Part shown: positions 20,555 through 33,598 of the stretch, piece by piece
Position numbering within the stretch: the first letter of the stretch is position 1
Layout: each line of letters begins with the position of its first letter
NCBI GenBank assembly: GCA_001821615.1
Contig: MHMS01000025.1
Coordinates: 23,314-65,750, forward strand
Source: Candidatus Niyogibacteria bacterium RIFCSPLOWO2_12_FULL_41_13
GTDB lineage: Bacteria > Patescibacteriota > Minisyncoccia > 2-12-FULL-41-13
Length of the DNA stretch: 42,437 nt
Direction of reading: 5' to 3'
Program-made: the position numbers and the translations under genes
Notes under the pieces: model-generated
Database searches by the model: none
The model's input: the letters and a program-made list of their open reading frames with translations, nothing else
What the model was told of the DNA's origin: nothing

Positions 20555-21596
20555 GAAATTACTTATTATTACTCAGAAAGTTGATGTCAACGACGATATT
20601 TTGGGATTTTTTCACGGCTGGCTGGAAAAATTCGCGAAGAAATTCAGCAAATTGACGGTGATTTGTTTGGAAAAAGGGGAGTATGTTTTGCCGCAAAACG
20701 TTGAAGTTTTGTCATTGGGCAAAGAAGCCGGAAAATCGCGGCTGAAATATATTTTTAGATTTTATAAATATATCTTTAAATATCGGGACGACTACGATGC
20801 GGTTTTTGTGCATATGAATCCGGAGTATGTTGTTTTGGGAGGATTATTTTGGAAGATAATGAGAAAAAAAATTCTGCTTTGGTATAACCATACTTACGGC
20901 GGTTTATTTGCCAAGCTCGGAATTATTTTTGCCGATATGGTTCTCCATACTTCTCCTTACGCTTTTTCGGCAAACACCAAAAAATCCGTCAGGATGCCGG
21001 CGGGAATTGACACTGAAATTTTCAAAAAAAATCCAGCCGCGGAAAAACTCAAAAATTCCATCTTGTACATCGGAAGATTCTCGCCGGTTAAAAATATTCA
21101 TATTCTTATTGAAGCGGCAAAAATTTTGGACAAGCAAAATTTAGATTTTTCCGTCTATTTATACGGCAAGCCGCCTGCAACGCATATCGGGTATTTCAAG
21201 CTGATTAAAGAATCCGCCCGGGAACTTGAGAAAAAAGGAAAATTATTTTTTAACGAGAGCGCGCCGAATTTTAAAACGCCGGAAATATACAATAAACACA
21301 TTGTTTCAGTTAATCTGACGCCGAGTGGAAACTATGACAAAACCGTTCTTGAATCAATGGCTTGCGAGACATTGGTTCTTGTTTCCAGCAAAGCGTTTGA
21401 GGACGCTTTGCCAAAAGAATTTATATTTAAAGAAAACGATGCGGATGATTTGGCCAAAAAACTTCAATCAGTGTTTAAATTGCCCGAAGACGAAAGAATT
21501 TTATTCGGTCAAAATTTTCGCCGTTATATAATTGAAAATCACAACCTCAATCTTTTGGCGGAGAAAATTTCCTCTGCAGTGGCTGTTCCCATTTAA
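20553..21596 (+). CDS. GT-B glycosyltransferase (GT4-like)
   Basis: This is a predicted sugar transferase of the GT-B fold acting on a nucleotide-sugar donor at the cytoplasmic membrane face. The ORF track starts at 20514, but codons before 20553 come from the inverted-repeat element; GTG at 20553 gives VKLLIITQKVDVND, a typical N-terminus. The roughly 347-aa protein has an N-terminal domain with GMSR-like positions degenerate, the linker GRFSPVKNIHILIEAAKIL that begins the donor-binding domain, and KTVLESMACETLVLVSS, the GT4 E-x7-E region (first Glu replaced by Lys/Thr context). The 3' end overlaps the convergent methyltransferase gene by 50 bp. Substrate unknown. Confidence 0.87.
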   Translation: MKLLIITQKVDVNDDILGFFHGWLEKFAKKFSKLTVICLEKGEYVLPQNVEVLSLGKEAGKSRLKYIFRFYKYIFKYRDDYDAVFVHMNPEYVVLGGLFWKIMRKKILLWYNHTYGGLFAKLGIIFADMVLHTSPYAFSANTKKSVRMPAGIDTEIFKKNPAAEKLKNSILYIGRFSPVKNIHILIEAAKILDKQNLDFSVYLYGKPPATHIGYFKLIKESARELEKKGKLFFNESAPNFKTPEIYNKHIVSVNLTPSGNYDKTVLESMACETLVLVSSKAFEDALPKEFIFKENDADDLAKKLQSVFKLPEDERILFGQNFRRYIIENHNLNLLAEKISSAVAVPI

Positions 21597-22161
21597 TTCC
21601 TTTTTTGTGGACAGTAGAGAGAACCTCAATGTCGTCAACGCCCCCAAACCAGTAGGCGAATATTCTATCGCTGAATGTGACATTTAAATTGAGAAACGCA
21701 TTGATGATTTTATTCGCTAATTTTGTGAACCACTTGCCTTTATATTTTGAATCCGGGTGGGGCGGAATGTCAAATCTCATCCAGGAGAAGCGTATTCGGT
21801 CATAGGTGAATTTCCGAGAATAGCGGTCAAGCAGGCGCATAGGAACAGCTGATTTATGTTTGTCGTTCATTCCAAAACCAGAAGCCAATACCCGGCTGAA
21901 ATGAGGATATTTCAAACTGATTTTAGCGCCGTCCTTGGATATGCGCCATAATTCGCACATAAAAGCGTCCACATCCGACTGATGCTCAATGACATGATGG
22001 GCTTCAATGTATTCAACGCTGTCGTCTTCAAACGGCCACGGGAAAATCTCCATATCCCAAAGCACATCCGGTTTGTATCTCGCGTCAAAATCCACGCAGA
22101 CGAATCCTTGCGATTGCTTTTCATTTGTCCGCGAGCCGCTTCCCAAATAAAGTTTCTTCAT
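21547..22161 (-). CDS. SAM-dependent methyltransferase-like protein
   Basis: This 204-aa protein starts with a methyltransferase motif I (KKLYLGSGSRTNEKQ), has an aspartate closing strand 2 (FVCVDFDARYKPDV) and a motif IV-like stretch (SVEYIEAHHVIEHQSDV). The second half is less typical (YSRKFTYDRIRFSWMRF). It may modify a glycan or lipid precursor, given the flippase upstream in the same operon (4-bp gap) and the glycosyltransferase opposite. It shares 50 bp with the convergent glycosyltransferase gene. Start ATG at 22161; no Shine-Dalgarno site. Confidence 0.8.
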   Translation of the reverse strand: MKKLYLGSGSRTNEKQSQGFVCVDFDARYKPDVLWDMEIFPWPFEDDSVEYIEAHHVIEHQSDVDAFMCELWRISKDGAKISLKYPHFSRVLASGFGMNDKHKSAVPMRLLDRYSRKFTYDRIRFSWMRFDIPPHPDSKYKGKWFTKLANKIINAFLNLNVTFSDRIFAYWFGGVDDIEVLSTVHKKGIKWEQPLQRKFSPPKD

Positions 22162-22165
22162 AAAT

Positions 22166-23416
22166 TTATTTTAATTTTTTTGCGAGAAAAATCAAAACAG
22201 CCAAATTCAAAAAATCAGCGGAAATTCTTGAAACAACCGCGCCAATAATTCCAAAATAATAAATTAGAACAAAGAGAAGAATAATTTGAAAGACCGCTCT
22301 TAGGGCGTTAAACCGATAGAGCTCCTTTATCGCCAGTTTTGATTGGAGAAAGGAAAGGGGTAAAATCGCCGAAGTGAAAATTATTGAAAGAGCGAATATC
22401 CTCGAATAAAAAATTGACTCAAGATATTGAGGAAAGAAAAGTTTGTATAAAAACGGAGCGATGAAAAAGTAAATTAAAACTACTCCAATCAAAATCCCGC
22501 TCATTTTTAAAATTTTGCCCAGAAGGCCCATTTTTATCTCTTCGGTTTCCCTCACGGAAAACCTGAGGAGGATGAGAAGTTTTAAATTTTTAAAAGGAGC
22601 TTTTATTTGCTCCGGAACGGCAATGGCAAAATTATAAACAGCCAATTGGACCGGACCTAAATAGTGAAAAATCAGGATTTTATCCAACTGCTGGGCGATT
22701 AAGGGAAATAAATCCATTAAAGTTAAATGTTTCCCGTAAGAAATGGTTTCTTCGGTTTTTTCTTCTTTTGGCGGAAAGCGCCGAAGAGTAACAATTAAAA
22801 AAAATAGCCGAAACAAAGTCCAGAGAAGAAAATAAGCAAGAGTAATCAGAAAAATGTTTTTGGTTACAAATAAAACTAAAATCAAAAAAACGCTTACTCC
22901 GGTAAAACTGACGATTCCGTAAATAGTGGAAGAGCGAAAGTTTTTTTGTCCTTGGAGAAAATAATTATAGAGTGAGAGCGAATCCATAAAAGGAATAAAG
23001 AAGCCGGGTATCATAAACAGGAGAGCAAGATTATTATTATCGTTTAAATAATAATAGAGAGCCAGAAATAAACTTAATAAACCGCCCAAAAATCCGAATT
23101 GAATTTTTGTTTTCAAAGACGGCATAAATGAACCCTCGTAACCTCTCGCAACCGCCTGAATTATCGCCGTATTAATTCCCGGGAGAGTTGAAATCGCAAG
23201 TATTCCGACAATTGAAAGGACATATTTATAAAGACCGAATGTTTCCTTTGGCAGTAAATTGGCAAAAGCGATTGCCAGAATAAACGAAGAAGCGGCGGAA
23301 ACGATTTGTCCGAGCGTCAGCCAAAAACCGCCGCGAGCCAGATAAATCATATCAGTGGCGGTATGTTGTTCCGACCATTTCAAAAGATTGTAAATTTTGT
23401 TTTTTAATTTTTCCAT
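22166..23416 (-). CDS. Polysaccharide flippase (MOP superfamily, Wzx-like)
   Basis: This is a 416-aa integral membrane protein with about 12 hydrophobic segments and the N-terminal GGFWLTLGQIVSAASSFILA pattern of the oligosaccharide flippase branch of the MOP exporters, which move lipid-linked glycans across the membrane. It begins with a short cytoplasmic segment and contains Lys/Arg residues within loops. It is encoded 11 bp downstream of the giant secreted protein gene in the same direction, and the methyltransferase follows. It may have its own role in decorating the secreted protein or the envelope. Substrate is not deducible. Confidence 0.88.
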   Translation of the reverse strand: MEKLKNKIYNLLKWSEQHTATDMIYLARGGFWLTLGQIVSAASSFILAIAFANLLPKETFGLYKYVLSIVGILAISTLPGINTAIIQAVARGYEGSFMPSLKTKIQFGFLGGLLSLFLALYYYLNDNNNLALLFMIPGFFIPFMDSLSLYNYFLQGQKNFRSSTIYGIVSFTGVSVFLILVLFVTKNIFLITLAYFLLWTLFRLFFLIVTLRRFPPKEEKTEETISYGKHLTLMDLFPLIAQQLDKILIFHYLGPVQLAVYNFAIAVPEQIKAPFKNLKLLILLRFSVRETEEIKMGLLGKILKMSGILIGVVLIYFFIAPFLYKLFFPQYLESIFYSRIFALSIIFTSAILPLSFLQSKLAIKELYRFNALRAVFQIILLFVLIYYFGIIGAVVSRISADFLNLAVLIFLAKKLK

Positions 23417-23427
23417 TTTAATTTATT

Positions 23428-26400
23428 TTACGGACCGAAAATGCCGGCGGGCGAGGAAATTGACGTATTGTTGATAAAAGTTAAATTACTGAATATGACC
23501 GCGGAATTTGCCGGCCAATCGGGCGCGTTAATCGCCAAAGTGTTATCTTCAAAGATAACATTTTCAAGAGTCATATTTGAACCCGTAAGATACAAAGCTG
23601 ATTTTTGTCCGGGATTTGGCGTTCTGTGTTTTGCAAAAGTTGAATTTTTGATCGTTGAAGTGGATGAAATAGAAGCCAATCCGTAGTATTGATTGTTTTC
23701 AAAAATCGCGTTATCTATTTCCAGCCGGCTTTGTTCCAGATAAAGAGCGGCTGAAGTTCCGCCGAAAACAAACTGGCCGGCGGATTTAACAGTAGTGCCT
23801 TTTATTTTGATAAAAGAGCCCGGTTTCCCCCTGATTCCATACCAGTCTCCGGCGTTTGACGGTTCGTAAGATGACGTGAAAATTATATCATTCGGATTTA
23901 TTCCATCGGCGATTAAATTGCCAAAAACATTAATCCCGCTTCCGTTTTTGCCTTTTATGACCGTGTTTGGCTTTATAGTCAGAGTTGAAGAAGCGTTAAT
24001 CTGGCTGAATCCGTCAAGAACATAGGGCAGGGAATTGGCGGAAAGAACGACGGCGCTATTGGTTTGTGTTTGAACGCTGTTCAAAACAATGCCATTGACG
24101 CCGTTTCCCGAACCGGAATTTTGAGAGAAATTTGAAACGACGCCTGTGGCCAAAATTGGCTCTTGCGAATTATTGTTAAAAACATTATTCTCTACATTCC
24201 CAAAATCATTAATAAGATATAATCCCCTTTTGTTATTTTGAAAAGTATTGTTGATTATTGTCGGGTTTCCTCCTTCAAGTTGAATTCCCGACGAATATCC
24301 TTCTGAAATATTATTGTTATTGCGGAAAGTATTATTAGAAATAAGAGAAGGGGAATTTATTAATTTCAGGCCGGAGACATAAGAATATTCAAAGATAGAA
24401 TTTTGAACAGTTGAAATTGCTTGGTCGATTCTTAAGAGAGCCCGGCCGCTAGACTGACCAGAGTAATACATTCCGCCATATCTGAAAATGGCGTGGTTGA
24501 CGGTTGAGGAAGAAGTTGAGCTAAGATAAACTTCTTTCCAGTTGCCCGAAGCGGGCGAAGTTGAAGTAGTGTCGCCGTTTAAATCTCCGCCGTATTCATC
24601 GTCAAGAAAGCTCGTGAAAACCACTGGCGAAGAAGAAGCGCCTTGAACTAAAAGATTGCCGTTTATATTAAGAGAAATTCCGCTTCCAGTTTTGAATTTA
24701 ATCACCACGCCTGAATTTATTGTTAAGGTCTTATCTTGCGATAAAGTTAAAGCGCTCTCAACAAGATAAGGACTTTTGGTTTTAGTTAAAGTAATATCCT
24801 GATTTATTATAGGATTTGTTGAAATCAAATAACTGGCGCTGTTGCGGGCCTTGGGAGTTGCGTTTATTTGATTATTATTAACATCGCGGCCATTTTTAAT
24901 AAGGGTATTGTTGCTTTGCCAGTTGCTGGCTATGTTTCCGGAATTTAGCGAATCAAATCTTTCCATAGAAACATAGGCTGAAATGCCGCCAGCGGGCCAG
25001 GAGCCGCTTGGCGTTGAATCAATCGTTGTCGTGGCATTATTTGATACCATTGCTAATTCTAAAATTTCGCCGGAATTATTTAAGCCATAACTAAAACTTG
25101 TCCATAAATCAGCTGTAATGTCTTTGATCGGACTTTGGGTAGATTCGTCGGTATCGCCGGTGTTTTTTCTTTCAATCAGATAATAGTTCTTTGCCGGAAT
25201 TGCGCCGGATAGCTGAATATAAGGGCTTAAATCAGTTTTTGAATACAAAACCCAGTTGGTCAAAGAGATTGTTTTTGAAGTTCGGTTGTATAACTCAATA
25301 AATTCGTCTGATGGATAATTCGCGCCAGTTCCCATCCAGCCGATTTCATTAATAACAACCGGCAGGGTGTTTATTTCCGCGGAAGTTGTCGCGGCGGACG
25401 ACCAATTTCCGGATTGGTCAATCGCCCGCAAGGAAAAATCGTAGTTGGAATTATCAGCGAGCGTTAATGCGGTTGAAGTGGCGGTGGTGGTGGCGGTGTT
25501 TGAGCCGTAGCTTAATTCATAGTAATCAATGTCTTGATTGGAACTTGACCAAGCGAGATTAAGAGTTGTTGTCGCCGTTAAGCATCCTTCTGGTTCTGGA
25601 GAAAGAGAATTTGAACACTGGGAAATAGAAAATGAAGAAATTTCCGGGCCAACGGAGTCTATAAATAATGTTGCCGCGGTTGAGGAGGAAATATTGTTTG
25701 AAAGGTCAACGGCGTAAAAATCAATCGTGGTTGTTCCTTGATTAAACGATAGATTCAGCGACCAGTTGCCAGACCCGCCAGCAGTAGTCGTGGCAGTCGT
25801 GGTAGAACTATTTAATTGATAGATGACTTTAATGGTTGAAATGGCCTCGGCCGTTCCCTGAAAATCAATACTTGTGGTTGCGAAAGTTTGATTGAAGTTT
25901 GACGGAGAGTTGATGGTTGGCGGGTTAGGCGGCGTGGTGTCGGTGGGCGCGTTAATTGAAACCGCTTTTGTTGAAGTTGCCGACCAATTGTCGGTCTTAT
26001 CTTTGGCGCGCAGGGAAAAAACGTAAGAGGTATTATCAGAAAGAATTAAGGTTGTTGAGGTTGCGATTGTTGTTGAAATATTTCCAGCATAAGAAAGTTC
26101 ATAATAATCAAGATCAATGGCGCTTGAATTCCAGAGAAGATGGAGAGTGGTTGTTGCGACTTGGCAATTTTGGCCGGACGAGCATTCGGCAATTGAAAAA
26201 GTATCAATGGTTGGACCGATTGAGTCAATGAATAATTGAACGCTTATTGTTTGCGATTGATTGCCGGCCAAATCTTCCGCGTAAAAATTAATTGTTGTAG
26301 TTCCCTGATTTAAATTTAAAGACAAAGACCATTCGCCAAGATTTGAAACCGTTGTTGTGGCGGAACTTGCCGTTACTACGGAATTCGCCTCGGCTGTTCC

Positions 26401-28800
26401 CTGAAAAGTTATTTGCGAAGAGGTGAATGTTTGATTAAAACTTGACGGCGAAGTGATAGTCGGAGCATTGGGCGGAGTGGTGTCAGTCGGAGGAGTTTGG
26501 CTTGCTCTGTTTTGGCAATTATTTTCCGTTTTGGGAGTGGCAATAGCCGTGCACCAGGAAGCGTCATTTTTTTGCATTGTTTCTTTGGTGCTATTGTCTC
26601 CGGCTGGCCAGCTGGCGCTTGAATTGAGAACGGTTTGGTCAATGGTCGTGGTGGCGTTATTCGCGACATAAGAGAGAACAAGAATTTCGCCGCTGTTGTT
26701 TAAAGCGCCGGTGTAAATTTTGTCTGCCGCGATGTCGGGAACGGCGTTGTCGTCAGTCCTTTCTAATAAATAATATCCGAACGGCGAAATTAAACTTGTT
26801 AATTTTATATAAGGAGCGAGATTGGTTGAAGAATACAAAACGAAATTTTCCATTTTGATTGTCCGGTTTGTCGGATTATACAATTCAATCCATTCGTCGG
26901 ACGAACTTGTTGCCGTGCCCATCCAGGCAATTTCGTTGATGATTACCGGCTGGGTGTTTATTTCAATTGAGACAGTAGAAGTCGCCGACCAATTGTTTGA
27001 TTTGTCAACCGCTCGGAGCGAAAACGAGTAAGCTGTGTTATTTTGAAGGGTTAATGATGTTGATGTTGCCGTCGTGGTTGAAATGTTTGCGCCATAAGAT
27101 AATTCGTAATAATTTAAATCCGAATCATTGGAATTCCAAAGAAGATTAATGGTTGTAGTCGCGATTAAGCAGTTTTGGGATGAGAGCGAATTTTGGCATT
27201 CAAGAACGGAAAAAAAACTTATTGAGGGTGGCGTTGTATCCGATGGGGTTGTATCTAATAGAATTGTGTTTTGGGAAACCATATTCGGAGTCGGCGATTG
27301 ATTCCCTCCGCCTCCTGCTCCCGGCGCTGAAGGAATTGCGATTAAGCCGTATCGGTCAATAATGGAAGAAGCCGGCTTTTTTGCCGGCGGAATGGCGTAC
27401 ACATAGGTTGGAATATTGGAAGTGGGATTTTCTATCGTTTTAGTATTTGGAAATAGGGTTTCCAAGTTCGTATTTTGTACTGTTGGAGATGCCATCTCCA
27501 ATTGGTCTGACTGAATCCCCAATGATTGAGTTGTTGCCGATTGGAAAGAAGAAGCTTGAGTTTCTGTTCCAAGAGATATAACAGAAGAAGTTTGCGGCTC
27601 TTGTTGAGAAAAAATATTTTTTAGAATATCAGCCGGCTTTAATATAACATCGCGGTAGAATTTTCTGGCTGTGGTTTTAATTATTGCTTGCGCAATTCCG
27701 GATTTTGTTTGTTCATTTAAAAAAGAAATTGTCTGGTCAGATGTATTTGGTTTTGGCGGCGAAGCAAGTTTTTCAGGATTTTGTTTGGCTTTTTCTGTTT
27801 CTTGATGAAAAAGATTGATAATTCCCGCGCCATTGATAATTGCTTGGCGGGAAAGAAGGGCGAAGTAGTCGGATAGGATTGGATAATAGTCATCACTAGA
27901 TTTAATTGTATAAGTTTCGATAATTTTATAACCATCTTTTTTAATATCTTTCATTACTAATTTAAATTTTTTATTGTTTTCATCTATACCATAACAAAAT
28001 TCATTATCACAATTTTGTTTAACGATATTAAGATCGGGTAGCTTATATTTACTATTATCTATCGTATCTTTGCTGAAAAAATTATTATTAGAATATTTAG
28101 CTAAATCAATTAAATATTCATTAATTGTGTTTTTAATGTTTGGCTTAAAGTCTTTGTCCTTTAATTCTTCTGAAATATTAAAATTTTGTCTGTCAAACTT
28201 TGCTGTATAAATTTCATAAGGACTGCCCAGATCCCCAGTAATATTTTGTACTGGTTCTGCATGAGTATCATTTCTTGTGTGTTCTGGCACAGTTGCGTCT
28301 TCTATTAAATGAAGAATAAATCCTAAAGTATAATAAGCTTCTTTTTTGTTATTATTTACAGCTAATTCATAAATGGCTTTTTCCCAAGTATGGTTTCCTA
28401 AAAATTGATGATAAGAAGTTTGTAAGTTTTGATTATGTAGCCATTCTAAAGAAGAGACCGGCGATTTATCAGCGATTAGGGCGTAAGAAACAGATTGAAC
28501 AAGCCAATTCGGCATAATGCCAGTTTTTTCACCAGTCCACCCTTGATTATAAATCGGGTCATAAAAATGATTTATCCATCTTGGTATAGTGTCTTCATCG
28601 TGCGAACCCTGAATAATCCATTCTTTTTCTTCATCTGTGATTTTTGGGTCAAAAAATAAATTGTAAAAATCCATTATCTCATCGGTTAAAGCTGGATGAG
28701 TGGTAGTATCGTTGTAGGCCTTGGAAAAATCTGATAGAAAATAACCAGTTATAATAAAAACTATAAATACAATAAAATAAAATTTATGATATTTTATCAT
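23428..28800 (-). CDS. Giant secreted multidomain protein: PLC/S1-P1-like domain, FN3/Ig-like repeats, lamin-tail domains, beta-helix
   Basis: This is a 1790-aa exported protein. Residues 1-30 form a signal peptide. Residues about 33-300 resemble the zinc-dependent phospholipase C / S1-P1 nuclease fold: THPALTDEI (H35), QGSHDED (H67), HQFLGNH (H131, H137) and HLIEDATVPEHTRNDTH (H164 to H180). A Ser/Gln/Thr-rich linker follows (about 310-520). Then come three similar FN3-like modules (starting near 525, 865 and 1055), two Ig-like modules (near 777 and 958) and two lamin-tail modules (INEIAWMGT near 617, INEIGWMGT near 1150). The C-terminal 460 residues are Asn-rich right-handed beta-helix repeats. 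No C-terminal sorting signal is seen. It probably acts at the cell surface; enzyme activity is an inference. Confidence 0.85.
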   Translation of the reverse strand: MIKYHKFYFIVFIVFIITGYFLSDFSKAYNDTTTHPALTDEIMDFYNLFFDPKITDEEKEWIIQGSHDEDTIPRWINHFYDPIYNQGWTGEKTGIMPNWLVQSVSYALIADKSPVSSLEWLHNQNLQTSYHQFLGNHTWEKAIYELAVNNNKKEAYYTLGFILHLIEDATVPEHTRNDTHAEPVQNITGDLGSPYEIYTAKFDRQNFNISEELKDKDFKPNIKNTINEYLIDLAKYSNNNFFSKDTIDNSKYKLPDLNIVKQNCDNEFCYGIDENNKKFKLVMKDIKKDGYKIIETYTIKSSDDYYPILSDYFALLSRQAIINGAGIINLFHQETEKAKQNPEKLASPPKPNTSDQTISFLNEQTKSGIAQAIIKTTARKFYRDVILKPADILKNIFSQQEPQTSSVISLGTETQASSFQSATTQSLGIQSDQLEMASPTVQNTNLETLFPNTKTIENPTSNIPTYVYAIPPAKKPASSIIDRYGLIAIPSAPGAGGGGNQSPTPNMVSQNTILLDTTPSDTTPPSISFFSVLECQNSLSSQNCLIATTTINLLWNSNDSDLNYYELSYGANISTTTATSTSLTLQNNTAYSFSLRAVDKSNNWSATSTVSIEINTQPVIINEIAWMGTATSSSDEWIELYNPTNRTIKMENFVLYSSTNLAPYIKLTSLISPFGYYLLERTDDNAVPDIAADKIYTGALNNSGEILVLSYVANNATTTIDQTVLNSSASWPAGDNSTKETMQKNDASWCTAIATPKTENNCQNRASQTPPTDTTPPNAPTITSPSSFNQTFTSSQITFQGTAEANSVVTASSATTTVSNLGEWSLSLNLNQGTTTINFYAEDLAGNQSQTISVQLFIDSIGPTIDTFSIAECSSGQNCQVATTTLHLLWNSSAIDLDYYELSYAGNISTTIATSTTLILSDNTSYVFSLRAKDKTDNWSATSTKAVSINAPTDTTPPNPPTINSPSNFNQTFATTSIDFQGTAEAISTIKVIYQLNSSTTTATTTAGGSGNWSLNLSFNQGTTTIDFYAVDLSNNISSSTAATLFIDSVGPEISSFSISQCSNSLSPEPEGCLTATTTLNLAWSSSNQDIDYYELSYGSNTATTTATSTALTLADNSNYDFSLRAIDQSGNWSSAATTSAEINTLPVVINEIGWMGTGANYPSDEFIELYNRTSKTISLTNWVLYSKTDLSPYIQLSGAIPAKNYYLIERKNTGDTDESTQSPIKDITADLWTSFSYGLNNSGEILELAMVSNNATTTIDSTPSGSWPAGGISAYVSMERFDSLNSGNIASNWQSNNTLIKNGRDVNNNQINATPKARNSASYLISTNPIINQDITLTKTKSPYLVESALTLSQDKTLTINSGVVIKFKTGSGISLNINGNLLVQGASSSPVVFTSFLDDEYGGDLNGDTTSTSPASGNWKEVYLSSTSSSTVNHAIFRYGGMYYSGQSSGRALLRIDQAISTVQNSIFEYSYVSGLKLINSPSLISNNTFRNNNNISEGYSSGIQLEGGNPTIINNTFQNNKRGLYLINDFGNVENNVFNNNSQEPILATGVVSNFSQNSGSGNGVNGIVLNSVQTQTNSAVVLSANSLPYVLDGFSQINASSTLTIKPNTVIKGKNGSGINVFGNLIADGINPNDIIFTSSYEPSNAGDWYGIRGKPGSFIKIKGTTVKSAGQFVFGGTSAALYLEQSRLEIDNAIFENNQYYGLASISSTSTIKNSTFAKHRTPNPGQKSALYLTGSNMTLENVIFEDNTLAINAPDWPANSAVIFSNLTFINNTSISSPAGIFGP

Positions 28801-28806
28801 AAATTT

Positions 28807-29283
28807 TTATATATCAGTTAATTTCCAGATACCAGATGGGTATTTAATAAACTCTATCAAAATAGGTTTTCTTATTAAATAAAGATTTTCATTTTGAGAA
28901 TATTTACCTTGATATTGTAGAGATTGTTTTAATAAATTAAGAACATTTTTAATATCTTTTTTTTGAGCATTTTTTAGATCATCTAGCTCCTTTTCTTGTT
29001 TTTCAAGAATAAAATACCTACTCGCCAATTCATAATCTCCTTTTTCCACCGCCTCAATAAACATTTGAAGTGTTTTCTGCGGAGTTTTGCCGCCATAGGT
29101 GTCGGCCATTAGTTTTTGCCTTTCTGTTTCTTCTTGCTTTTTGATTCCTTCTTGAAATTTTTTCAGCGCGCGCTTTTGCTGAAATTTTTTGTAATAAACA
29201 TAGGAATAAACGCCAGCGTTAAATCCGCCGTAAAGAACGCCAAGAGCGACAATTATTAAACCAAAAAATTTTATAACTTTCAT
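28807..29283 (-). CDS. Membrane-anchored protein, unknown function
   Basis: This 158-aa protein has an N-terminal hydrophobic anchor (about 5-30, FFGLIIVALGVLYGGFNAGVY), a charged helical stretch (about 34-60), and a C-terminal domain with TLQMFIEAVEKGDYELASRYF, the helix pattern seen in the NTF2-like DUF4878 group; that similarity is weak. It would be anchored with its main domain outside. It sits 6 bp upstream of the giant secreted protein gene and overlaps the 43-aa gene as ATGA, so the three are one operon and it may help export or anchoring of the giant protein. Confidence 0.75.
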   Translation of the reverse strand: MKVIKFFGLIIVALGVLYGGFNAGVYSYVYYKKFQQKRALKKFQEGIKKQEETERQKLMADTYGGKTPQKTLQMFIEAVEKGDYELASRYFILEKQEKELDDLKNAQKKDIKNVLNLLKQSLQYQGKYSQNENLYLIRKPILIEFIKYPSGIWKLTDI

Positions 29284-29411
29284 ATTATCAAACCCTTTTC
29301 CATATCAAGCCAATAGACGCCGATTAGTCCGATTATAAACCCAACTGCGAAAACAATAATTAAAAATAAAACTACTTTTCGCGTGAAAATTTGTTCAAGA
29401 AAATTGGCCAT
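29280..29411 (-). CDS. 43-aa single-pass membrane peptide
   Basis: This short ORF is absent from the ORF track. It reads MANFLEQIFTRKVVLFLII and continues through one hydrophobic segment to a short tail (YWLDMEKGLII). Its stop overlaps the next gene's ATG as ATGA, and it directly follows a good promoter, so it is the likely first gene of the operon for the giant secreted protein. The positive residues before the membrane segment suggest that the N-terminus is inside. Confidence 0.7.
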   Translation of the reverse strand: MANFLEQIFTRKVVLFLIIVFAVGFIIGLIGVYWLDMEKGLII

Positions 29412-30136: not shown

Positions 30137-30167
30137 TAATCTGCGGAGGTTTAACCTCCGCAGATTA
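30137..30167. repeat. Palindrome with core GAGGTTTAACCTC
   Basis: TAATCTGCGGAGGTT and its exact complement flank a central T (15-bp arms). The inner core equals the other palindromes, but the outer arm changes from CTATT/AATAG to CTGCG/CGCAG while staying fully paired. Confidence 0.9.
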
Positions 30168-31376: not shown

Positions 31377-32246
31377 TCAACGGAATAATTTTTTGAGTTC
31401 CAATAATAGCGGGGCGGCTAAAAAAATTGACGAATAGGTGCCCAACACTATTCCCAAAACCAAAGTCAAAACAAAAAATTTAATCGTTTCTCCGCCAAGG
31501 ATGATAATCGGAGTTATTACCAAGAGCGTGCCCATGCCGGTGTTGAGCGACCTTATATAGGTTTGTCTTAAACTTTCCCCGATGATATTTGAAAATTCTT
31601 CCCTGCTGGATTTCATCAGATTTTCTCTAATTCTGTCAAAAATGATGATTCGGTCGTTGATTGAGTAGCCGATAACCGCGAGAATGGCGGCGATAAAAGG
31701 AAGCCCCACTTCAACTTGATGATACCTTCCAAGATAAGCGAATACTCCCAAGACAACAATGATGTCAAAAATTAGAGTGATGATTGTGATAAAACCATAA
31801 CTCCAGGAAGTGAAAATATAAGAAATCTGGCGAAAAGCGATTGCCATATAGATAATCATCAAGACAAGAGAAATTATTATCGCAAGCGCCGCTTTGTTTT
31901 TAAGCTCTTTTCCGATGACCGGGCCGATTGAATCAAATCTTAGTTCTTCTTTCGGGTTTAAATTTTTGACGATTTCTTCGTGGGCGTTCTGGTCAATGTC
32001 CTTGAAGCGAAGAATATAAGTCGCGTTTTCGCTTTTTTTGATTTCAACTTCCCCCAAATTGAAATTTTTTAACTTTTCCCGGATTTCGTTTTCTTGGATT
32101 TCTGAATCAAATTTAATTTCCATTAAACTGCCTCCGGTAAAATCTATCGCCGGACGCACGCCGTAGTTTATAAAGAAAAACAAGGCGGCGATAAAGGTAA
32201 GGCCGGAAAAGATGTAAAATATTTTTCTGTAATTGACCACAAACAT
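31377..32246 (-). CDS. secF: Protein translocase subunit SecF
   Basis: SecF works with SecD to pull translocating proteins outward using the ion gradient. The 289-aa protein has the first membrane segment (about 7-27), the conserved VRPAIDFTGGSLMEIKF motif, an extracytoplasmic domain, and five further membrane segments including YSINDRIIIFDRIREN, the family signature in TM4-5. Length is normal. secD ends 4 bp upstream in the same direction. Confidence 0.96.
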   Translation of the reverse strand: MFVVNYRKIFYIFSGLTFIAALFFFINYGVRPAIDFTGGSLMEIKFDSEIQENEIREKLKNFNLGEVEIKKSENATYILRFKDIDQNAHEEIVKNLNPKEELRFDSIGPVIGKELKNKAALAIIISLVLMIIYMAIAFRQISYIFTSWSYGFITIITLIFDIIVVLGVFAYLGRYHQVEVGLPFIAAILAVIGYSINDRIIIFDRIRENLMKSSREEFSNIIGESLRQTYIRSLNTGMGTLLVITPIIILGGETIKFFVLTLVLGIVLGTYSSIFLAAPLLLELKKLFR

Positions 32247-32250
32247 AATT

Positions 32251-33546
32251 TTATCTGTTTAAAGCGCGAAGATAAATTTTCGTAAGCCAGACCCCGCTTA
32301 ACATGCTCGTTGCCACCCCGATTATTAAAGTCAAGGCAAATCCCTTAATGGCGCTTGTGCCAAGCCAAAACAGCACTATCCCGATAAAAATGGTTGTAAG
32401 GTTGCTGTCAAAAATAGCGTTCCACGCCCGTTTGAATCCGTCTTCAACCGCGATTGTTTTTGTTTTGCCGGCCTTTAATTCTTCTTTGGTTCTTTCAAAA
32501 ATCAAAACATTAGCGTCAAGGGCCATTCCCAAAGACATTAAAAATCCAATCAATCCGGCAAGCGTCAGAGTGACGGGAATGAGTTTAAAGAGCAAAAGCG
32601 TGAAGCCGAAATAAAATAAAAGCGCGAAGAGAGCGATTAATCCGAGGAGCCGGTAGTATGCCAGGAAATACAAAGATAAAAGCGAAAGGCCGATTAATCC
32701 CGCTTTAATTGAATCATTGATTGAATCTTGGCCGAGCGTCGGTCCAACCCTTTCTTGACTTACGAGTTTTATTGGAATCGGAAGGGCGCCGGAATTTAGC
32801 CGTTGGACGAGAAGTTTAGCTTCTTTTGGCGTGAATTTTCCCGTAATTTGGGCTTTGCCGCCGATTATTTCTTCGCGCACAACCGGAACGCTTATTGGAA
32901 CTCCATCCAGATAAATCGCAACCGGTTTTCCGACATTTTCTTTTGTTATTTTTGCGAAAATTTCCTTGCCGGTTTCGTCAAATTCCAAAGAAATAATCGG
33001 TTCAAAAGTCGTCTCATCAAATTGCAGAGTTGATTTTTTCAAAAATCGGCCGGTTAGCGCCGCGCTTATGAAATACGGGTCTTCGTTTAATCTCTGGTTT
33101 TGTTTTTGCGATTCTAAAATTATTTTTGTTTCTTCTTCGGTTCTTTGGGTTTTGAATTCAAGATAAGGTGTCTCACCGATCATTTTTATCGCTTCGTCAA
33201 TATTATAGACGCCGGCAAGCTCAACAATCAGCCGCCGTTCTTTGTCTTTTTTCTGGACCTGGACAATCGGTTCGCGCACGCCGAACAAATTAACTCTTCT
33301 TTCGATGACATCTCGCAGTCCGCTCATCGCCGAGTCAATTTCTCTTCCTTTTACAACGGATAAATCCGCTTGATAGATCAGATGGCTTCCGCCTTGCAAA
33401 TCAAGCCCGAGTTTGAAAGGAAATTTGGCGAATTTGCCCGCCAAAAATTGGTTTTTTAACAAAAATGGAGAAAGATGAAAATAAAGAAGAAAAACGGTCA
33501 ACAACAGAAAAGCGGCTGATAGAAAATAGTATTTTCTTTTTGGCAT
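32251..33546 (-). CDS. secD: Protein translocase subunit SecD
   Basis: SecD is the large partner of SecF in the post-translocation motor. The start is placed at ATG 33546 (MPKRKYYFLSAAFLLL); the ORF track adds 14 codons that overlap the promoter. The 431-aa protein has the first membrane segment, the conserved FKLGLDLQGGSHLIYQADL motif, the P1-like extracytoplasmic domain (shorter than in E. coli) and five membrane segments with LGMALDANVLIFERTKEEL. It is compact but shows all family parts. No Shine-Dalgarno site is seen despite a leader of about 16 nt. Confidence 0.95.
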   Translation of the reverse strand: MPKRKYYFLSAAFLLLTVFLLYFHLSPFLLKNQFLAGKFAKFPFKLGLDLQGGSHLIYQADLSVVKGREIDSAMSGLRDVIERRVNLFGVREPIVQVQKKDKERRLIVELAGVYNIDEAIKMIGETPYLEFKTQRTEEETKIILESQKQNQRLNEDPYFISAALTGRFLKKSTLQFDETTFEPIISLEFDETGKEIFAKITKENVGKPVAIYLDGVPISVPVVREEIIGGKAQITGKFTPKEAKLLVQRLNSGALPIPIKLVSQERVGPTLGQDSINDSIKAGLIGLSLLSLYFLAYYRLLGLIALFALLFYFGFTLLLFKLIPVTLTLAGLIGFLMSLGMALDANVLIFERTKEELKAGKTKTIAVEDGFKRAWNAIFDSNLTTIFIGIVLFWLGTSAIKGFALTLIIGVATSMLSGVWLTKIYLRALNR

Positions 33547-33569
33547 AAGGCGAAAAATTGGATATTCGC

Positions 33570-33598
33570 AATATATCATAAAAACCAAAAAGTTTCAA
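33570..33598 (-). promoter_or_regulatory. secDF promoter
   Basis: On the minus strand TTGAAA (33598-33593), 17 nt, TATATT (33575-33570) preceded by TGA. On the plus strand the flippase gene may use TAAATT at 33617-33622, 9 nt before its GTG, with the same -35 region read the other way (weak). Confidence 0.65.

Follow-up and report, generated by a model that had tools for sequence, protein, structure and literature searches.

A giant gene in a 42,437-nucleotide stretch of DNA from Candidatus Niyogibacteria bacterium RIFCSPLOWO2_12_FULL_41_13 (assembly GCA_001821615.1, contig MHMS01000025.1, positions 23,314 to 65,750 of the forward strand; the whole stretch is called the window below) encodes a predicted secreted protein whose N-terminal head almost certainly, on the evidence of structure modelling, has the phospholipase C/P1 fold. 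Judged from its conserved residues and modelled structure, the head is very probably an active zinc phosphodiesterase, and on balance we lean towards phospholipid as its main substrate. The fold and the zinc site are well supported, and the protein as a whole is an unusual assembly of ordinary parts: a divergent subfamily of the phospholipase C (PLC) fold whose zinc site is shifted and to which lamin-tail modules are joined, encoded in a conserved two-gene locus. Fold, conservation, architecture and gene linkage, as given below, were computed directly.

23428..28800 (stop codon included), minus strand: giant secreted protein of 1790 amino acids, one unbroken open reading frame with an ATG start; homologues of 1100-1900 amino acids in many Parcubacteria
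28717..28800, minus strand: signal peptide, residues 1-28, with a signal peptidase I site predicted from the sequence between SKA and Y; pattern kept in homologues
27766..28716, minus strand: phospholipase C/P1-fold zinc domain (the head), residues 29-345, from AlphaFold2, Foldseek and profile matches to PC-PLC

Fold and zinc site of the head

The match of the window protein to the Zn_dep_PLPC family (PF00882, 18.8-21.5 bits) did not reach the gathering cut-off of 26.8, so that the window sequence alone is a hint and not proof, and a search of the PDB with that single sequence gave no match, a family profile being needed. PF00882 was matched independently by 22 of 29 homologues, and the family profile retrieved PC-PLC chains (B. 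cereus, L. monocytogenes) from the PDB at E 1.2e-5, with S1/P1 chains absent from its matches up to E 1. For the S1-P1 nuclease family PF02265 there was no match in the window protein and one weak match (0.055) among the 29 members. AlphaFold2 modelled the head from a 69-row alignment with a pLDDT of 96.2 and a pTM of 0.93, and as the first ten residues reached a pLDDT of 97, the N-terminus is confidently placed. In a Foldseek search of the PDB places 1-14 were all taken by zinc phospholipases C or by alpha-toxins of clostridia (probability 1.00, best E 3e-4), every match at E <= 0.001 being one of these two kinds, with S1/P1-type nucleases next and only at E 0.28 and worse; the PLC branch is thus nearer than the nuclease branch. 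The initial annotation had proposed a PLC/S1-P1-like zinc domain here, and fold, profile matches and invariant ligand residues all support it, with zinc phospholipase C as the first fold match and the S1/P1 nucleases as the second.

Conservation was assessed on 69 mature domains, namely that of the window and those of 68 homologues sharing 32-58% identity with it, in which 22 of 317 columns were invariant, including ten His, Asp or Glu residues (H35, E69, D70, H78, D81, H164, D168, H174, H180 and E196). The six ligand positions that align with PLC all lie among these invariant columns (about 6e-8 for a random draw), and H35 and H180 are invariant as well, so the putative metal ligands that had been read from a His/Asp pattern are kept across the family. 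The HxxxDx5H motif, which falls within residues 164-180 (HLIEDATVPEHTRNDTH), is by itself weak evidence, being present in 2.3% of shuffled head domains.

28696..28698, minus strand: H35 (mature position 7), candidate counterpart of PC-PLC His14; invariant in 69, equivalence taken from residue order and not from an alignment
28591..28593, minus strand: D70, predicted counterpart of PC-PLC Asp55; invariant, from a weak, low-scoring HMMER segment
28567..28569, minus strand: H78 in NHFYDP, predicted counterpart of PC-PLC His69 (SHFYDP); invariant, from a HMMER segment with identical HFYDP and a low score alone
28309..28311, minus strand: H164, predicted counterpart of PC-PLC His118; invariant, profile alignment
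28297..28299, minus strand: D168, predicted counterpart of PC-PLC Asp122; invariant, profile alignment
28279..28281, minus strand: H174, predicted counterpart of PC-PLC His128; invariant, profile alignment
28261..28263, minus strand: H180, proposed stand-in for PC-PLC His142; invariant in 69, the His142-aligned G192 not being His
28213..28215, minus strand: E196 (SPYE), predicted counterpart of PC-PLC Glu146 (HSKYE); invariant, profile alignment

The Zn1 ligand positions of PC-PLC (Asp55, His69, His118, Asp122) are occupied by D70, H78, H164 and D168, the first two through a weak second profile segment of low score that sets EED and HFYDP on the AD (Asp55) and HFYDP (His69) of PC-PLC. The published ligands of Zn2 are His128, His142 and Glu146 (PMC10420013); H174 and E196 match the first and last of these, while at the place of His142 the family has Gly, Asp, Pro or Ser, and the alignment suggests that the invariant H180, six residues past H174, may take the role of His142. 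The N-terminal Trp of PC-PLC and of S1 nuclease sits in the zinc cluster. Of 90 homologues, 82 are predicted to begin with Tyr once mature, 7 with Phe and a single one with Trp (probably a mis-call), and a cleavage pattern with A, G or S before the cut and Y or F after it, 5-6 residues ahead of the first invariant His, is found in 89 of them.

Bacterial zinc phospholipases C (B. cereus PC-PLC, 1ah7/2fgn; L. monocytogenes broad-range PLC, 8cqm) share with the giant protein the fold, the HFYDP and HxxxDx5H motifs, counterparts of Glu146 and Asp55, secretion and a mature N-terminus near the first His. The giant protein differs from them in its predicted N-terminal Tyr or Phe instead of Trp, in the absence of His at the His142 position, and in an added C-terminal beta element and long helix followed by about 1450 amino acids of surface-type modules, with 10-15% identity between them. 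That the head is catalytically dead and merely the binding head of an adhesin seems very improbable, as ten strictly invariant His, Asp and Glu residues amid otherwise rapid change are the pattern of an active site, although the altered ligands (no Trp1, no His142) and the large adhesive-type tail would suit such a role.

S1/P1 nucleases, which have a zinc cluster with a mature aromatic N-terminus and a His near position 6, carry Asp as the last Zn2 ligand where PC-PLC has Glu, and the invariant E196 makes the Zn2 acid of the giant protein Glu. This residue, the E-values of profile and fold searches, which in both are orders of magnitude better for PLC than for S1/P1, and the near absence of PF02265 matches make it unlikely that the head is an extracellular nuclease or nucleotidase supplying nucleotides to a DNA-importing cell. 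Such a role would fit the fold shared with the S1/P1 nucleases, their place next in the Foldseek order, the ComEC encoded in the genome and the occurrence of lamin-tail domains in the extracellular nuclease ExeM (PMC6085458), also a secreted protein that pairs a phosphoesterase with a lamin-tail domain, its catalytic domain being of the exonuclease-endonuclease-phosphatase superfamily, an unrelated fold. In one row of the alignment of relatives SNase and helix-hairpin-helix domains occur as well, perhaps in separate members, a hint that DNA is a substrate for some relatives.

Architecture, export and probable substrate

Behind the PLC-fold head, family scans found the lamin-tail, Ig-like and beta-helix modules that the initial annotation had claimed for the tail. 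The two lamin-tail domains (PF00932) gave E 1.2e-12 and 48.6 bits for the whole protein against a cut-off of 34.3 in the Pfam scan, Ig-like families between residues 560 and 1140 comprised Big_6, Glucodextran_B, Big_13 and an OmpL47-type (Pfam/NCBIfam), and a parallel beta-helix repeat lay within the last 530 residues (NCBIfam).

27244..27765, minus strand: low-complexity linker, residues 346-519, from the sequence; no family above cut-off
26959..27123, minus strand: Ig-like (OmpL47-type) domain, residues 560-614, NCBIfam NF047446
26653..26955, minus strand: lamin tail domain 1, residues 616-716, PF00932 at 1.3e-6, alone under the gathering score
26239..26460, minus strand: Ig-like domain, residues 781-854, PF09136/PF17936
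25669..25887, minus strand: Ig-like domain, residues 972-1044, PF17936 Big_6
25033..25362, minus strand: lamin tail domain 2, residues 1147-1256, PF00932
23431..25032, minus strand: beta-helix tail, residues 1257-1790, TIGR03804 repeat at 1509-1545; no Pfam match

Clostridial alpha-toxins (C. absonum, C. perfringens) likewise join a C-terminal module to a catalytic head of the PLC fold, but the Pfam/NCBIfam scan found in the giant protein no PLAT (C2-like) domain, the membrane-binding tail of those toxins, its own tail being of the lamin-tail, Ig-like and beta-helix type.

The route that we propose, and that taken whole we consider somewhat favoured, is that the giant protein would be exported by Sec and cut by signal peptidase I before Tyr29, after which the new N-terminus with H35, D70, H78, H164, D168, H174, H180 and E196 would form a zinc cluster resembling the one in bacterial phospholipase C. 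Once outside the cell, the head would hydrolyse phosphodiesters, its most probable targets being the head groups of phospholipids in neighbouring or host cells, and the modules of the tail (lamin-tail, Ig-like and beta-helix) would bind the protein to a surface. Zinc occupancy, N-terminal ligation, the lipid substrate, surface binding and the host are parts of this route that we infer.

Several points weigh against it. Overall the head resembles PC-PLC only to a modest degree (TM 0.6 by target length, rmsd 6-7 A, at the low identity given above), and His142 and Trp1 of PC-PLC are not conserved as such in the family. The C-terminus has no evident anchor or sorting motif, nor is one common to the homologues, and with no membrane anchor seen the surface display proposed in the initial annotation is a possibility only. 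In addition, neither of two diacylglycerol kinase families searched matched the genome, so the lipid product of a phospholipase C could not be recycled by a known route, which argues against simple feeding on diacylglycerol; more plausible than lipid recycling are membrane damage, a supply of head-group phosphate or the freeing of other nutrients.

The draft genome (562 kb, 95.7% complete) encodes a PlsC-family acyltransferase and has no match to ketoacyl synthase, CTP_transf_1 (CdsA) or CDP-alcohol phosphotransferase, although each of these families was matched in at least 13 of the 14 control genomes, suggesting that its lipids probably come from outside; the source bacterium is probably host-dependent. 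A secreted phospholipase has been predicted in Vampirococcus lugosii, a predatory bacterium of the candidate phyla radiation without phospholipid synthesis (PMC8080830), which we liken to the present case by description only; it differs in that the portion of that account drawn on here describes no modular giant architecture.

The lack of a match to either diacylglycerol kinase family would also suit a PLC-fold zinc phosphoesterase acting on another substrate, such as wall or capsule polymers, phosphorylated glycans or phosphate sources in general, as would the polysaccharide flippase-like gene that lies 11 bp downstream in the window, followed by a methyltransferase-like gene. We regard this as distinctly unlikely, since the flippase was not seen as a conserved neighbour elsewhere and no close relative has a known substrate of this kind or any other.

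Distribution of the family and its partner gene

The same architecture was sought in other Patescibacteria and proved to be that of a widespread family, whose conserved neighbour gene the initial annotation had not mentioned. Among 188 genomes from the class of the window genome 60 had the N-terminal domain, in most cases within an open frame of 1100-1900 amino acids, compared to 11 of 380 genomes (eight of them strong) in an even sample of the phylum, so that the family is concentrated in this class. An alignment-based scan of 85,462 species genomes gave 130 relatives, and among the 80 whose loci were fetched every lineage-named record was from Parcubacteria/Patescibacteria (Wolfebacteria, Magasanikbacteria, Azambacteria, Jorgensenbacteria, Yonathbacteria, Sungiibacteriota and others), the remainder being titled just 'bacterium'. 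No relatives of the giant protein were found in viral contigs. Of 36 full-length proteins, that of the window included, 31 had a lamin-tail domain, and the rest of the tail varied (beta-helix, PKD, fibronectin III, PQQ propeller).

28807..29283, minus strand: partner gene, 158 amino acids, with an N-terminal membrane helix and a probable NTF2-like (DUF4878-type) domain; 6 bp ahead of the giant gene

Relatives of this partner adjoin the giant gene in the same orientation in 76 of the 80 fetched loci as well as in the window. Among the 188 same-class genomes 55 had both genes, 5 the giant gene only and 9 the small gene only (odds ratio 145, inflated by shared ancestry). The partner was modelled as a compact alpha/beta domain (AlphaFold2 pLDDT 97) that is probably NTF2-like: it scored 17.3 bits against DUF4878 (cut-off 24.1), with weak matches in 34 of 68 members, its profile found designed NTF2 proteins at E 0.004, and Foldseek of the model gave nothing significant. 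Charge bias suggests that the domain faces outward, and tether, chaperone or inhibitor of the giant enzyme are candidate roles. Genomes of the class have several partner paralogues, some of which are neighbours of alaS, ribosomal protein, secA or murB-like genes (named from reading translations), with no PLC domain nearby in the stretches fetched, so the partner family is not exclusively dedicated to the giant enzyme and a role as dedicated immunity protein is weakened. At one homologous locus (L041, 6621-9545) the partner gene and the PLC-domain reading frame are each present twice in a row, apparently by tandem duplication.

According to a recent review, no lipid-breakdown function has been identified in Parcubacteria. 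We tentatively suggest, as a possibility that falls somewhat short of probable, that many Parcubacteria break down lipids with a new clade of zinc phospholipase C, Tyr-capped and with a rearranged zinc site, which forms part of giant modular exoproteins and is passed on together with a membrane-anchored NTF2-like partner. Our literature search, confined to open-licence papers and for that reason weak evidence of novelty, found nothing joining phospholipase C with Parcubacteria or describing the giant architecture. With a conserved candidate for an exported enzyme and a short, foldable catalytic domain the question of lipid breakdown becomes directly testable, and the giant gene could serve as a marker for the trait across Parcubacteria.

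Surrounding genes in the window

The flippase-like gene and the methyltransferase-like gene after it (21547-23416, minus strand) are probably co-transcribed with the giant gene in the window, and the flippase was not a conserved neighbour in the other fetched loci. Nor was any other downstream gene conserved, a SpoU methylase that recurs in 15 loci being absent from the window locus. PADLOC gave no match and hence no sign of a defence system. A tiny open reading frame of about 43 amino acids with a single membrane helix (~29284-29411, minus strand), whose stop overlaps the partner start (ATGA), was considered as part of the locus and set aside, as it was not found upstream in most other loci. 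Further upstream of the cluster lie a strong, terminator-like hairpin of 14 pairs (30137-30167, minus strand) and the secD and secF genes (31377-33588, minus strand).
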